Origin: Pelagibacterales bacterium MED-G40
Lineage (GTDB): Bacteria > Pseudomonadota > Alphaproteobacteria > Pelagibacterales > Pelagibacteraceae
Direction: 5' to 3'
Length of the DNA stretch: 64,000 bases
Assembly (NCBI GenBank): GCA_002457515.1
Contig: NTJN01000001.1
Coordinates: 124,001-188,000 of the forward strand
The notes under the pieces are model-generated. The model saw nothing but the letters and a program-made list of their open reading frames with translations. It did not search any database and had not been told where the DNA came from. Position 1 is the stretch's first letter. Each line of letters begins with the position of its first letter. A program made the translations under genes and the position numbers. Of the stretch, positions 39,185 to 46,303 are shown piece after piece.

Positions 39185-40002
39185 GATATTTCAAAGTCAA
39201 TCTTTTTAACTTCAGAGACAGGACCAGTCATAAATATATTATCTGTTTTATCTATTTTTATATTTAAAAAACCTTCTTTAAATTTTATATCTACTTCATC
39301 ATTAACTAATCTACTTTTAAACGCAGCAACAGCTGTTGCACAAGCTGCAGTTCCACATGCTTTAGTAAGTCCAGCACCTCTTTCCCATACATTAACAGTT
39401 ATGTTTTTTTCATCTACAACTTGAGCAAATGTTACATTAGTTTTTTCTGGAAATAGAGCATGGTTTTCGATTTTAGGACCTATCGTATTTAGGTTATGTT
39501 CAAAACAATTTTTTACGAAAAAAATTATATGTGGATTTCCAACGTTCACACAAAATCCACCAGCAAATGTTTTGTTATCAATCATGATAGTTATATCGGC
39601 AGGATTTATTTTTTTTGATAAGGGAATATCCTCAAAACTTAACAGAGGTTTTCCTATTTCAAGTTCTACTAGAAAATCACCTACTATTTTTGCGTTAAGC
39701 AGCCGGTTATCAGTTTTTAATTTTACCTCTTTAGTGTTTAGTTTTTTACCTAAAAGGTAAGCCACGCATCTAGATCCGTTTCCACATGCACTTATCTCAC
39801 CTCCATCAGAGTTAAAAATTGTTATTGGAAAAGAATTTCCTTTTTCTTTTTCTATAAAGATTATTTGGTCAAAACCAATATTAGTTCTATTCCCCAATTC
39901 AATAATTTTTTCTTTTGTCAAATTAATAGAATTTTTTCTTCTATCAATAATGACAAAATCATTACCTAAGCCATCCATTTTGTAAGCGTTAATTATTGCC
40001 AT
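39181..40002 (-). CDS. dapF: Diaminopimelate epimerase
   Basis: Interconverts LL- and meso-diaminopimelate for lysine and peptidoglycan. Catalytic Cys73 in SACGNGSRC and Cys216 in TKACGTAACA are both present, with the substrate loop FNSDGGE (63-69). Length 273 is normal. Start ATG 40002 is divergent from ffh across 160 bases holding candidate RNA hairpins. Confidence 0.96.
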   Translation of the reverse strand: MAIINAYKMDGLGNDFVIIDRRKNSINLTKEKIIELGNRTNIGFDQIIFIEKEKGNSFPITIFNSDGGEISACGNGSRCVAYLLGKKLNTKEVKLKTDNRLLNAKIVGDFLVELEIGKPLLSFEDIPLSKKINPADITIMIDNKTFAGGFCVNVGNPHIIFFVKNCFEHNLNTIGPKIENHALFPEKTNVTFAQVVDEKNITVNVWERGAGLTKACGTAACATAVAAFKSRLVNDEVDIKFKEGFLNIKIDKTDNIFMTGPVSEVKKIDFEIS

Positions 40003-40063
40003 TAATGATTAGTATAATTATTCATTGACTTTTAAAACCCTTAATTGTAGCTTCTCGTCACTT

Positions 40064-40143
40064 CCGCAAATAGTAAATTTTGCGGTGCCTTTAGAAATAA
40101 AGGGATCGACACTAGTCAGCGAGGGTTCGCCCACTAGTGCGAT
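40064..40143 (+). ncRNA. Candidate structured RNA / ffh leader: three consecutive hairpins
   Basis: In the 160-base gap between dapF and ffh: hairpin 1 pairs CCGCAAA (40064-40070) with TTTGCGG (40079-40085); hairpin 2 is CCTTTA-GAAA-TAAAGG (40088-40103), a perfect stem closed by a GNRA-type loop; hairpin 3 is ATCG-a-CACTAGT ... ACTAGTG-CGAT (40105-40143), 11 pairs with one bulged A, plus an inner GGG-TTCG-CCC. Spacing is tight and GC is well above background. It ends 19 bases before the ffh start, so it may be an ffh leader or a separate small RNA. It does not show the SRP RNA core motif. The GAAA loop favours the plus strand. Confidence 0.6.
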
Positions 40144-40162
40144 AGTTGTTGGGTAATTATAA

Positions 40163-41515
40163 ATGTTTGAAAATTTAACTAATAAATTAGAAAATATATT
40201 TTCTAACCTTAAAAAAGCGCCTTCATTAAATGAAGAACAAGTAGACTCTGGCCTTAAAGAAATTAGACAGGCATTACTTGAAGCTGATGTTTCTCTTCCA
40301 TTCGCAAAAGATTTTATTCAGAATATTAAACCAAAAGCTATTGGACAAGAAATAATTAGATCAACATCTCCAGGACAGATGATTGTAAAAATTGTTAACG
40401 ACGAGTTAATAAAAGTCTTAGGAGTAAAAAATCAAGAATTAAATTTTAACGCTGTTCCGCCAGTATCTTTACTTTTGGTAGGTTTACAAGGTTCTGGAAA
40501 AACTACAACAGCAACAAAATTAGCCAAACATATTGAAAAGAAATTCAAAAAAAAAACAATGCTAGTTAGTTTGGACGTTTATAGACCTGCAGCTCAAGAA
40601 CAACTTAAAATTTTGGCTGAAAAAAATAACATTGTAAATCTTCCAATTGTAGAAAAGCAATTACCTTTAGATATTACAAAAAGAGCACTTGGGGCAGCGA
40701 ATCTTAATGGTTCTGACGTTATAATTTTTGATACAGCAGGAAGAACACAAATTGATCTTAATATGATGACTGAAATAAAACAGATCAAGGAATTAACAAA
40801 ACCTACCGAGACAATATTAGTTGCTGACTCACTTACAGGTCAAATTGCAGTTAATATAGCAAAAGAATTTGACTCAGCTGTAGATATTTCTGGAATAATT
40901 TTAACCAGAGTTGATGGAGACGGAAGAGGCGGGGCTGCTTTGAGCATGAAAGGTGTTACAGGCAAACCCATAAAATATATAGGTGTTGGTGAAAAAGTAG
41001 AAGACCTTGAAGCGTTTCATCCTGACCGAATAGCGAATAGAATTTTAGGTATGGGAGACATTGTTTCTCTTGTAGAAAAAGCATCTCAGGATTTAGATGA
41101 GGAAAAAATTAAAAAAACAGAAGACGAACTAAAACAAGGGGCTTTCACAATGAATTCCTATCTTGATCAACTTAGACAAATGAAAAAAATGGGTGGCATG
41201 GAAGGAGTCATGTCAATGATGCCTGGCGTTAGTAAAGTTAAAGAACAAATGAAAAATTCATCAATAGATGAAGATTTTTTAACTGCTAACGAGGCAATTA
41301 TTCTCTCCATGACCAAAAAAGAAAGAGAGAACCCAAAAATTATTAGCGGTTCTCGAAGGAAGAGGATTTCCGAAGGCGCAGGAGTTGATGTTTCTAAAAT
41401 AAATAAATTATTAAAACAATTTAAAATGATGTCAGACATGATGAAAAAAGTGTCAAAAGGTAAAAAAATTCCATCAGGAGCAATACCTGATGAAATATTA
41501 AATCAACTCAAATGA
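40163..41515 (+). CDS. ffh: Signal recognition particle protein Ffh
   Basis: A 450-residue SRP GTPase binding signal peptides and SRP RNA. P-loop GLQGSGKTT (107-115), DTAGRTQID (about 192-200) and TRVDGDGRGGAALS are in the NG domain; the methionine-rich M domain follows from about 300 (MKKMGGMEGVMSMMPG) with the SRRKRISEGAGV RNA-binding stretch. Heads the run ffh-rpsP-trmD-rplS; ten bases to rpsP. Confidence 0.97.
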   Translation: MFENLTNKLENIFSNLKKAPSLNEEQVDSGLKEIRQALLEADVSLPFAKDFIQNIKPKAIGQEIIRSTSPGQMIVKIVNDELIKVLGVKNQELNFNAVPPVSLLLVGLQGSGKTTTATKLAKHIEKKFKKKTMLVSLDVYRPAAQEQLKILAEKNNIVNLPIVEKQLPLDITKRALGAANLNGSDVIIFDTAGRTQIDLNMMTEIKQIKELTKPTETILVADSLTGQIAVNIAKEFDSAVDISGIILTRVDGDGRGGAALSMKGVTGKPIKYIGVGEKVEDLEAFHPDRIANRILGMGDIVSLVEKASQDLDEEKIKKTEDELKQGAFTMNSYLDQLRQMKKMGGMEGVMSMMPGVSKVKEQMKNSSIDEDFLTANEAIILSMTKKERENPKIISGSRRKRISEGAGVDVSKINKLLKQFKMMSDMMKKVSKGKKIPSGAIPDEILNQLK

Positions 41516-41525
41516 AAGGAAAAAA

Positions 41526-41987
41526 ATGTTAAAAATTAGATTGTCTATGGGCGGTGTTAGAAAAAGGCCTATCTATAAAATTGTAGTTGCGGACAGCAGG
41601 TTTCCAAGAGACGGAAGATTTGTTGAAAAATTAGGATCATTCAATCCTCTTTTACCAAAAGAAAAGAAAGAAAGAATTAAGATTGAAACTGAAAGAGTAA
41701 AATACTGGATTAGCAAAGGTGCAAAACCAACTTTGAGAGTTTCAAGAATTTTAGGTGAAGCGCAAATATTTCCTATGCCTAAGCCCGGAAATAATCCTCT
41801 TAAAGCTGTTCCTAAAAAAGACAGAAAAAAAGAAGATAGTAAAGAAGAACCTAAAAAAGAAGCTCCGAAACAGGAAGCTAAGAAAGAAGAACCTAAAAAA
41901 GAAGCTCCGAAACAGGAAGCTAAGAAAGAAGAACCTAAAAAAGAAGCTCCGAAACAGGAAGCTAAGAAAAATGAGGAGAAAAAATAA
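41526..41987 (+). CDS. rpsP: 30S ribosomal protein S16 with repetitive C-terminal tail
   Basis: The first about 90 residues are a normal S16 (IRLSMGGVRKRPIYKIVVAD, GRFVEKLGSFNP), binding 16S rRNA during early 30S assembly. S16 is usually 80-90 residues; this one is 153, with a Lys/Glu/Pro/Ala tail containing three perfect 14-residue repeats (EEPKKEAPKQEAKK). Preceded by a good ribosome-binding site (AAAGGA). The next gene is trmD only two bases away; rimM, usually between them, is missing. Confidence 0.97.
   Translation: MLKIRLSMGGVRKRPIYKIVVADSRFPRDGRFVEKLGSFNPLLPKEKKERIKIETERVKYWISKGAKPTLRVSRILGEAQIFPMPKPGNNPLKAVPKKDRKKEDSKEEPKKEAPKQEAKKEEPKKEAPKQEAKKEEPKKEAPKQEAKKNEEKK
41844..41969 (+). 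repeat. Three perfect tandem 42-bp repeats in rpsP
   Basis: Units at 41844-41885, 41886-41927 and 41928-41969 are identical base for base. Each is 14 codons, so copy-number change keeps the frame. Identity at synonymous sites implies recent duplication or active slippage/recombination. Confidence 0.95.
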
Positions 41988-41989
41988 TA

Positions 41990-42694
41990 ATGTGGAAAGC
42001 GAGAATATTTACATTATATCCAGAAATATTTCCAGGCGCTCTTACCAAAGGGATTTATGGTAAAGCGTTAGAAAAAAAAATTTGGAATTTAGATTTGGTA
42101 AATATAAGAGACTCTGCAGAAGACAAACATAAAACTGTAGATGACACACCTTTTGGAGGAGGAAGTGGTATGCTTTTAAAAGCTGACGTACTAGGAAAAT
42201 CTATTGATAAAAATGTGCAGCAAGGTGAAAGAATTTTTTATCTGTCGCCAAAAGGAAAAAAATTTGATCAAAAGTTTGCAAAAGAATTATCAAAAGAAAA
42301 AACTATTAATTTAATTTGTGGTCATTTTGAAGGTGTGGATGATCGTATTTTAAACACAAGAAAGATTGAAGAAATTAGTATTGGTGATTATATTTTGTCT
42401 GGCGGTGAGTCAGCGGCTTTTGTAGTTATCGATAGCATACTTAGACTTTTACCTGGAGTAATAGGAAACGTCACTTCAAACAAAGAAGAAAGTTTTGAAA
42501 ATGGATTGTTAGAGTATCCTCAATATACCAAACCTCAACTTTGGGAGAAAAAAAGTGTTCCTGATGTTCTATTATCAGGAGATCACGCTAAAATTAAAAG
42601 CTGGCGTTTATCTCAATCAGAGGCTATAACACGTCGCCAGAGACCAGATTTGTGGAAAAAACACATTAAAAAAAATAAAAATGAAAAACATTGA
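41990..42694 (+). CDS. trmD: tRNA (guanine37-N1)-methyltransferase TrmD
   Basis: Methylates G37 of tRNAs to prevent +1 frameshifting. The 234 residues show [13 protein letters not shown] (5-17), the GGGSGMLLK loop (about 56-64), the SAM-knot segment [12 protein letters not shown] (105-116) and [10 protein letters not shown] (about 130-139), all TrmD hallmarks of the SPOUT fold. Ends within rplS by 14 bases. Expected in this operon position. Confidence 0.96.
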
Positions 42695-43193
42695 AGACAT
42701 AAACAGAGAAGCAGTAAAAAAAATTACCTCTAATAAAAAAATTACTAATTTTGCGCCAGGAGATACAATTAAAGTTGGGGTTAAAATAGTTGAGGGCAAA
42801 AGGGAAAGAATTCAATTTTTTGAGGGAGTTTGTATTGCTAAAAAAAATAGAGACATAAATTCCTCTTTTACTGTTAGAAAAATATCCTTCGGTGAAGGTG
42901 TAGAAAGAACTTTTGCATTGTATAGTCCAATTGTAGACTCAGTAAAAGTTATAAGATCTGGGAATGTTAGAAGAGCTAAATTATACTATTTAAGAACTAG
43001 ACAAGGGAAATCTGCAAGAATAGCAGAAAAAATTAAAAAAAAAATTGGAGTGGATGTTTCTGTTGAGCCAGAAGAACCAAAAGCTAAACCTGACACAGTT
43101 TCTGTAAAAGAAGAGGTTAAAGTTGTGGAAACAAAAAAAGAGACACCAAAAGTCGAAACTAAAGCAGAGAAGCCTACTGGCAAAAAAAAATAA
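42681..43193 (+). CDS. rplS: 50S ribosomal protein L19 with charged C-terminal tail
   Basis: Residues 1 to about 118 are a standard L19 ([43 protein letters not shown]), which sits at the subunit interface. The usual length is about 115-130; here a further about 50 residues of Glu/Lys/Val/Pro follow ([18 protein letters not shown] and KPTGKKK at the end). The tail is similar in style to the S16 tail three genes upstream but not repetitive at the DNA level. Five bases before leuC. Confidence 0.96.
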
Positions 43194-43198
43194 TTTAA

Positions 43199-44599
43199 AT
43201 GTCTAAAACGCTATACGATAAGATATGGGAAAACCATCTTGTTCACGAACAAAAAGAAGGAACATCATTAATTTATGTAGATCGTCACTTAGTTCATGAA
43301 GTCACAAGCCCCCAAGCTTTTGAAGGATTGAGGTTACAAAAAAGAAAATTAAGAAGGCCTGACTTTACACTTGCAGTCTCAGACCACAATGTTCCAACAA
43401 CTGACAGATCTAAAGGAATTGATGATGAAGAGTCTAGAATTCAAGTAGAAACTTTAAGAAAAAATTGTAAAGAATTCGGAGTAGAGCTTTTCGATGTAAA
43501 TGATAAAAGACAAGGTATCGTTCACGTAATTGGACCTGAACAGGGTTTTACTCAACCAGGTGCAGTTATAGTTTGTGGAGATAGTCATACTGCTACTCAT
43601 GGAGCATTTGGTGCGCTAGCTTTTGGAATCGGAACTTCAGAAGTGGAACACGTTTTAGCCACACAGACTCTCATTCAAAAAAAAACTAAAAACTTAAGAA
43701 TAAATGTTAATGGTACATTACCCAAAGGAGTAACTGCTAAAGACGTAATTTTAAAAATTATTGGAACGATTGGTACCGCAGGTGGTACCGGCTATGTTGT
43801 TGAATACGCAGGAAGCGTTATAAGTAATTTGAGTATGGAAGAAAGAATGACGATTTGTAATATGACTATCGAAGCCGGAGCAAGAGCAGGATTGATAGCA
43901 CCCGATCAAAAAACTTTTGATTACTTAAAAGGTAGAACTATGTCTCCTAAAGGTGAAAATTGGGATAAAGCAGTTAAATTTTGGAAAACCTTGTACTCAG
44001 ATAAAAATTGTACTTTTGATAAAGAGATTGACGTTCAAGGCGAAGATATAGAACCATTAGTAACCTGGGGCACCTCTCCTCAAGACGTTTCACCTGTTAC
44101 TGGTTTAGTACCAGATCCTGAAAAAGAAAAGAATGAAGATAGAAAAATGGCAATGAAAAGATCTCTCGAATATATGGGTTTGAAAGCCAATACAAAAATT
44201 TCAGATATTAAAATTGATAAAATTTTTATTGGAAGCTGCACTAATGGAAGAATAGAGGACCTTAGAGTTGCTGCTGATCTTCTTAAAGGAAAAAAAATTG
44301 CAAAAAATATAAGTGCTATGGTAGTGCCTGGATCAGGACTTGTTAAACAACAAGCAGAAAAAGAGGGACTAGATAAAATATTTAAAGAAGCAGGCTTTGA
44401 GTGGAGAGAGCCAGGATGCTCAATGTGTCTAGGAATGAATCCTGATCAACTTAAACCAAAAGAAAGATGTGCGTCTACTTCCAATAGGAACTTCGAGGGA
44501 AGACAAGGTAGGGGCGGCAGAACGCATTTAGTGAGTCCTGGGATGGCTATTGCAGCAGCAATCAATGGGCATCTTTCTGATGTAAGAGAGATAAAATAA
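43199..44599 (+). CDS. leuC: 3-isopropylmalate dehydratase large subunit
   Basis: With LeuD isomerises 2- to 3-isopropylmalate in leucine synthesis. The 466 residues include [14 protein letters not shown] (about 122-135), the cluster Cys in [12 protein letters not shown] and the paired Cys in [11 protein letters not shown], giving three 4Fe-4S ligands. Normal length. Shares one base with leuD (TAATG). Confidence 0.96.
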
Positions 44600-45207
44600 T
44601 GGAAAAGTTTACTGATTTAAAATCTATACCTTCTTATTTATCGCTACAAAATATTGATACAGATATGATAATACCTAAACAATTTTTGAAAACTATAAAA
44701 AGAACAGGACTAGGAAAAAGTTTATTTTATGAAATGAGATACGATGAAAATGGCAAAGCAATAAAAGACTTTATTTTAAATAAAGAACCATACAATAAGT
44801 CTAGAATTTTAATATCTGGTAAAAATTTTGGATGTGGTTCGTCAAGAGAACATGCTCCTTGGGCTTTATTAGATTTTGGAATTAAATGCGTAATTAGTTC
44901 TAGTTTTGCGGACATATTTTATAATAATTGCTTCAAGAATGGCATATTGCCAATTAAAATTGATGAGCAAAAAGTTTTAAAATTATCAGAGTATTCTAAA
45001 AGAAAAAAAGAGATAGAAATCAATTTAGAAAAACAAGAAATTAAATCTGGAAATGAAATCAATAAATTTGAAATTGACTCTTTCAAAAAGAAATGTTTGT
45101 TGGAAGGTTTAGATGATATTGCTTTATCAATGGAGAAATTAAGCAAGATAAATGATTTTGAAAAAAATTTAATATCAGAAAAACCATGGATTATAAATAA
45201 TGCCTAA
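44599..45207 (+). CDS. leuD: 3-isopropylmalate dehydratase small subunit
   Basis: 202 residues, the swivel domain partner of Leu[15 protein letters not shown] (19-32) and the [17 protein letters not shown] segment (73-89) are diagnostic. Overlaps leuB by eight bases, keeping leuCDB as a translationally linked unit. leuA is not in the window. Confidence 0.96.
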
Positions 45208-46303
45208 CAAAAGTAGAAAAATTTTGCTTTTACCAGGAGATGGTATAGGTCCAGAAGTAGTTAGAGAAGTTAAAAAAATACTTGAATGGTTTAACAAAAA
45301 TAAATCATTAGATTTTAAATTTGAAGAGGAATTAATTGGCGGAGCGTCTATTGATAAAAATAAAATTCCAATTACTGATGAAGTTTTTTATAAATCTTTA
45401 GAGTCAGATGCGGTAATTCTAGGTGCTTGTGGCGGCCCTAAGTGGGATAATTTAGAGTTCTCAAAAAAACCAGAAAGAGCTCTTTTAAAATTAAGAAAAG
45501 AATTAAAATTATTTGCAAATCTAAGGCCCGCGATTTGTTTTAAGCAGTTAGTCGACTCCTCTACCTTAAAACCAGAGGTAGTTTCAGGCTTGGATATAAT
45601 GATTGTTAGAGAGTTAACAGGTGGGATATATTTTGGCGAGCCTAGGGGTATACAGCCTATTAAAAACAATGAGAGAAAAGGAATAAACACTCACACTTAT
45701 ACAACAAGTGAAATACACAGAATAGCCAGAGTCGCTTTTGATTTAGCAAAAAAAAGGAACAACAAAGTTACCTCTTGTGAAAAATCAAATGTAATGGAAG
45801 CTGGAGTTTTGTGGAGAGAAGAGGTTCAAGCGTTAAAAGATAAAGAGTTTAAGAAGATCGAGTTAAATCATATGTTAGCAGATAATTGCGCAATGCAGCT
45901 TCTTAGAAATCCTAAACAATTTGATGTCATATTAGCTGACAACCTTTTTGGAGATATGCTCTCAGATGAGGCTGCAATGTTAACTGGCTCACTAGGTCTG
46001 TTACCATCCGCCTCTTTAGGTGAAAAGGACAAAGATGGAAAAATTAGATCATTATATGAACCTGTTCATGGCTCTGCTCCTGATATAACTGGGAAAAATA
46101 TAGCTAACCCTATTGCAACAATATTAAGCTTATCAATGGCTTTAAGATATTCTTTAGACCTCATCAAAGAAGCTGATTTAATCGATTCAGCTGTGCAAAA
46201 AGTACTAGACGATGGTTTAAGAACAAAAGATATAATATCACCAGGCAAAAAAGAAATCTCCACAACTGATATGGGTGATGCAATTATTTCAAAATTGAAA
46301 TAA
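45200..46303 (+). CDS. leuB: 3-isopropylmalate dehydrogenase
   Basis: NAD-dependent oxidative decarboxylation to the leucine 2-oxoacid. The 367-residue protein shows [12 protein letters not shown] (10-21), [14 protein letters not shown] (about 146-159), the metal-binding [14 protein letters not shown] and the adenosine site [10 protein letters not shown]. Complete, with a ten-base gap to asd. Confidence 0.96.

Follow-up and report, generated by a model that had tools for sequence, protein, structure and literature searches.

The 64,000-nucleotide stretch of DNA analysed here (the window) carries three stacked hairpins between dapF and ffh, and the locus raises the question of which RNA these hairpins form and to what the operon behind them might respond. 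The preliminary description, made from the letters of the DNA, had proposed a possible new ffh leader RNA that could control the operon in response to the level of SRP or of ribosomal proteins, or else an independent RNA.

The hairpin element and its locus

Gene order in the window was ftsY and dapF on the minus strand followed by ffh-rpsP-trmD-rplS-leuC-leuD-leuB on the plus strand (Table 1); ftsY and the leu genes were named from their own sequences. The hairpin element was located just 5' of ffh and divergent from dapF, in agreement with the preliminary description.

Folded alone, positions 40064-40143 formed exactly three adjacent hairpins, here named P1, P2 and P3, with a minimum free energy of -33.4 kcal/mol. 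Shuffled sequences averaged -16.6 (sd 3.0; z -5.57) and 0 of 200 shuffles were equally stable, which confirmed the three well-formed, nearly spacerless stems first described. Each hairpin also beat its own shuffles (z -4.2 for P1, -2.9 for P2 and -3.8 for P3), and the fold that included flanking sequence (40040-40180) had a z of -2.56. P2 was the GAAA-capped stem of the preliminary description.

P3 was composed of a CACTAGT/ACTAGTG stem, a CA/CC internal loop, an apical GCGA-GGGT-TCGC hairpin and a basal ATCG/CGAT extension with a bulged A. An inner TTCG loop had been read in this hairpin; the predicted fold instead placed a GGGT loop at the apex, closed by GCGA/TCGC, and the apical stem retained among relatives was GCGA/TCGC, not GGG/CCC. 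The 11-pair stem with a bulged A was present in the window, where it comprised seven family-wide pairs and the lower four ATCG/CGAT pairs, and it did not hold as a general description, since the lower four pairs were kept in the window and in many SAR11 and PS1 relatives and were weak across the class. With 60% of cells paired compared with 55% when shuffled, the basal extension with its bulged A was rejected as a general feature of P3. A C-C mismatch in P3 was found in 114 of 117 distinct loci, and in the other three the stem seems to have been assigned to the wrong place. The position beside the mismatch was A-C in 67 loci and C-G, U-A or G-U in 30.

An unpaired sequence resembling GTTGG or GTTTGG recurred a few nucleotides 3' of P3 throughout the class, whatever the distance to the start codon. 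Some predicted folds of PS1-clade leaders paired the 5' strand of P2 with this downstream GTTGG; judged by eye, the pairing was not transferable to SAR11 and was set aside.

Table 1. Features of the dapF/ffh region and the downstream operon, in window coordinates.
Feature	Position	Strand	Basis
TTGACT, predicted -35 box	40025..40030	+	TTGAC upstream of Rfam match in 139/139 loci
TAGCTT, probable -10 box	40048..40053	+	17-nt spacer; SAR11 relatives have TA(A/G)NTT in this position
Hairpin P1, CCGCAAA/TTTGCGG	40064-40070 with 40079-40085	+	Folding, covariation; outside Rfam RF01793
Hairpin P2, CCTTTA-GAAA-TAAAGG	40088-40093 with 40098-40103	+	Folding, covariation
Rfam RF01793 (ffh motif) match	40095..40147	+	55.4 bits, gathering cut-off 35, E 8.1e-8, full length
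Hairpin P3, ATCG-(A)-CACTAGT-(CA)-GCGA-GGGT-TCGC-(CC)-ACTAGTG-CGAT	40105-40143	+	Folding
TGTTGG, short unpaired sequence	40147..40152	+	Few nt past P3; GTTGG/GTTTGG/GCTG in relatives
ffh, first gene of the operon	40163..41515	+	Pfam SRP54, SRP_SPB, SRP54_N; ATG at 40163
rpsP (S16), candidate source of a feedback ligand	41526..41987	+	Pfam PF00886
trmD	41990..42694	+	Pfam PF01746
rplS (L19), second candidate source of a ligand	42681..43193	+	Pfam PF01245

Identity of the core RNA

A scan of the whole window at Rfam cut-offs returned a single match, to RF01793, the ffh motif, and its score lay above the gathering cut-off. The third hairpin is RF01793, so the core RNA was already known, having been listed since 2009 with no function assigned. 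The preliminary description had let its claim of novelty depend on an Rfam scan; with a known element returned, a new RNA class was ruled out, and what survives of the proposal is an ffh leader with conserved stems. Only the 3' part of P2 overlaps the RF01793 model, in which it is unpaired.

In Ca. Pelagibacter ubique, Meyer et al. (2009; PMC2704228) placed the ffh motif in the ffh/dapF intergenic region, 5' of ffh, and described it as one bulged hairpin with two conserved bulge cytosines, more than 600 metagenomic representatives and a transcript detected in marine small-RNA data. The window element shares with that motif the same P3 with its CA/CC loop, the same gene and the same dapF/ffh region, and it has both the C-G-initiated hairpin and the internal loop with two conserved cytosines. 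It differs in that two more conserved hairpins lie 5' of the one described by Meyer et al. and in that some copies of the element precede rpsP with no ffh present. An "ffH leader RNA" has been listed among the RNAs detected as expressed in Bartonella bacilliformis, and RF01793 has been annotated among the sRNAs of Mesorhizobium huakuii. The motif is also reported from the orders to which Rhodobacter sphaeroides and Sinorhizobium meliloti belong. A literature search, with most subscription journals outside its reach, returned no account of the function of the leader, of P1 and P2, of a reassignment from Ffh or of the PS1 case described below.

Rfam types RF01793 as an sRNA, and this typing, together with the transcript in the marine small-RNA data (PMC2704228) and the RNA detected in B. 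bacilliformis, would suit an independent small RNA acting in trans and set free by termination or processing after P3. However, the region between P3 and ffh held no terminator-like site, and the motif headed the same operon in all groups analysed, a position that an RNA acting in trans does not need. We consider a trans-acting RNA the least probable of the readings weighed here. A terminator or attenuator was likewise dropped, since no terminator-like site was found.

With 4.5S RNA (RF00169) the leader shares a functional link to Ffh only. No match to RF00169, with its Ffh-binding core, was found in the window or in 39900-40300 up to E 5, and the statement that the SRP RNA core was absent was therefore correct. 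A separate 4.5S gene was present in 86 of 101 relatives, and the leader was rejected on this count as an SRP RNA or as a replacement for an absent 4.5S RNA. The assembly to which the window belongs (85% complete) had no RF00169 match, which is probably an assembly gap.

Conservation of P1 and P2

RF01793 was present in 81 of 101 relatives of the window genome and in 110 of 386 sampled Alphaproteobacteria; carriers of the core RNA include abundant marine bacteria as well as many further Alphaproteobacteria. The stems outside the Rfam structure were conserved as well, as the proposal of a leader had supposed, and P1 and P2 both showed compensatory changes. In an alignment of 30 distinct sequences of the SAR11 order, changes on both sides were seen in five of six pairs of P2 (at one pair UA in 16 and CG in 14) and in three of seven pairs of P1, and 94-97% of P1 and P2 cells were paired. 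When partners across the whole structure of this alignment were slid by 1-3 columns, pairing fell from 96% to 33-47%.

A three-hairpin covariance model built from SAR11-order sequences alone found P1, P2 and P3 together in non-SAR11 Alphaproteobacteria, among targets preselected by their Rfam match. The best of these matches (69 bits, E 4.5e-16) had TTCCGGAAAG...CTTTCCGG as P1 and CCCCCGC...GCGGGGG as P2. Outside SAR11, both-side changes occurred in seven of seven P1 pairs and six of six P2 pairs in an alignment fitted to the structure. Because of this fitting an alignment-free folding test was carried out, comparing the stretch from the predicted transcription start to P3 with equal stretches downstream and upstream. 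Among 87 non-SAR11 loci the mean z was -1.84, compared with -0.18 downstream and -0.17 upstream; among 33 SAR11 loci it was -3.78, compared with about 0 in the controls. Mann-Whitney p values were 3e-21 and 4e-16, with no correction for common descent. In several of the deeper groups P1 and P2 appear altered or questionable. On these comparisons of sequence and predicted fold, P1 and P2 are taken as part of the element: they covary in SAR11 and, elsewhere in the Alphaproteobacteria, recur 5' of the Rfam hairpin.

Promoter and leader geometry

TTGAC was found 29-124 nt upstream of the Rfam match, mostly at 54-99 nt, in every one of the 139 loci; about 0.12 occurrences per 130 nt are expected by chance. 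The probable -10 box was not picked up by a generic promoter scan. From the spacing, transcription is predicted to start near 40060, about 4 nt before P1.

An Ffh start codon lay downstream of the Rfam match in 133 of 139 loci, 55-336 nt from the start of the match, and P3 therefore has no fixed relation to the ribosome-binding site. Such variable spacing speaks against a mechanism in which P3 simply masks the ribosome-binding site.

The wide variation in start-codon distance, the predicted 5' end some 4 nt from the first hairpin and the co-occurrence of hairpins and promoter in all loci also suit a passive structure, in which the hairpins would need no ligand and would shield the mRNA from decay that depends on the 5' end, or set transcription close to the promoter. 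However, stability alone would not call for a C-C mismatch in P3 that hardly varies or for an apical stem as well conserved as this one. A role of this kind in stabilisation or at the promoter, with no ligand involved, is the chief alternative to a regulatory leader, and we hold it to be unlikely.

A leader without ffh in the PS1/OCS116 clade

An Ffh start went undetected in six of the 139 loci. In one of these (L126) the Ffh-like start seen in the reading frame was beyond the range of the pattern. The remaining five come from a single family, the marine PS1 clade or OCS116 cluster (f45; 18 genomes, namely G143, G255, G341, G411, G477 and G486-G498, of which six were at least 90% complete), and in these five the next gene was that of ribosomal protein S16. 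RF01793 was present in 14 of the 18 genomes, directly upstream of rpsP, and the rpsP start codon lay 41-48 nt beyond the P3 core in every locus read. The full three-hairpin model matched the PS1-clade leaders at 37-49 bits.

In one PS1-clade locus (L170) the order was mtaB-dapF on the minus strand, the leader, and then rpsP-rimM-trmD-rplS-leuC-leuD-leuB, with mtaB, leuD and leuB named from sequence. This is the order of the window without ftsY and ffh and with rimM added, and the leader is divergent from dapF in both. Across L170 3686-11399, ftsY was missing beside dapF and ffh was missing 3' of the leader. The leuC-leuD-leuB genes followed rplS nearly without gaps both in the window (43193-46303) and in the PS1 clade, which suggests a ribosomal operon shared with leucine synthesis.

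Searches of the 18 PS1-clade genomes returned the Ffh M domain in none (the control was found in 14 of 14), no SRP54 GTPase over the cut-off in any, and hence no FtsY either, and 4.5S RNA in none; the Ffh protein of the window gave short P-loop matches alone, the best at E 0.003. From these genome searches, the family appears to have lost ffh along with the whole SRP machinery (Ffh, FtsY and 4.5S RNA). To our knowledge, SRP is held to be near-universal, and the apparent loss in this marine family is of interest by itself. It was not described in the literature covered, from which most subscription journals were absent.

This clade bears directly on the possibility, raised by Meyer et al. (2009; PMC2704228), that Ffh regulates itself. 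Under such SRP sensing, a shortage of 4.5S RNA would leave Ffh to bind the leader and repress its own operon, and the position of the motif 5' of ffh in nearly all loci speaks for it. Against it, the leader gave no SRP RNA match, Meyer et al. saw no likeness to the region of 4.5S RNA that Ffh binds (PMC2704228), and the leader does not keep company with ffh throughout, being retained on rpsP in a clade in which Ffh, FtsY and 4.5S RNA were undetectable. Where Ffh, FtsY and 4.5S RNA are all missing, the leader cannot serve as a sensor of Ffh or SRP. An Ffh-sensing switch is therefore improbable, only slightly less so than an RNA acting in trans, and of the two inputs first proposed for the operon, SRP levels and ribosomal protein levels, the second is favoured.

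A candidate ribosomal protein leader

Wherever both lay on one contig in motif-bearing genomes outside PS1, rpsP followed the motif in the same orientation and at no more than about 5 kb; contig breaks affected this count in G106, G253 and G418, and no S16 was found in G119, G305 and G347. The constant companions of the leader were rpsP, trmD and rplS. In other phyla, leaders have been identified or proposed for S16 and L19 (Eckert et al., 2020; PMC7247131), and feedback by one of these two proteins is therefore the simplest model.

It is about an even chance that the leader controls the (ffh-)rpsP-(rimM)-trmD-rplS operon, most likely by feedback from S16 or L19; we infer the regulation, the ligand and the level of control. 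For a fuller reading, a probability of roughly 0.4 seems appropriate: the "ffh motif" would be a misnamed, ancient alphaproteobacterial leader of three hairpins through which S16 or L19 controls an SRP/ribosome operon, and which has outlived the loss of SRP in PS1/OCS116. On the feedback model, transcription would begin at the conserved TTGAC promoter and give an RNA whose 5' end lies about 4 nt ahead of P1, P2 and P3. S16 or L19 in excess over rRNA would bind this leader, for which P3, where the C-C mismatch hardly varies, is the best candidate site, and binding would lower translation or stability of the mRNA.

The element resembles the S16 leader of Flavobacteria (rpsP, rimM) and the L19 leader of Firmicutes and Flavobacteria (PMC7247131) in being a structured 5' leader on an operon with rpsP and/or rplS. 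In those systems the encoded ribosomal protein has been proposed as the feedback agent, a role that we infer here, and the operon studied here differs in usually starting with ffh, a gene that Eckert et al. (2020; PMC7247131) do not mention. The conserved, covarying 5' structure sits on a ribosomal protein operon, directly before rpsP in the PS1 clade. On the other side, the motif precedes ffh and not a ribosomal protein gene in most lineages, and no Rfam ribosomal protein leader family matched 39900-40300 up to E 5. Moreover, every informative genome with the motif outside PS1 had rpsP linked to ffh, so that one clade alone separates the hypotheses, and the leader could persist there as a promoter-associated or stabilising element. 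The enlargement to three hairpins and a lineage that retains the leader after loss of ffh amount to a natural experiment against Ffh autoregulation, with S16 or L19 as a testable ligand.

RimM is unlikely as a general ligand, given that rimM was found in none of 37 searched genomes of the window's own family, several of them about 94% complete; in the sister family it was found in 20 of 24 genomes. In the window, rimM is missing between rpsP and trmD (41987-41990). S16 of the window ends in a C-terminal extension of repeated KKEEPKKEAPKQEA units (41850-41980), and S16 of the PS1 clade has an analogous EEAPAEEAKAEE tail.
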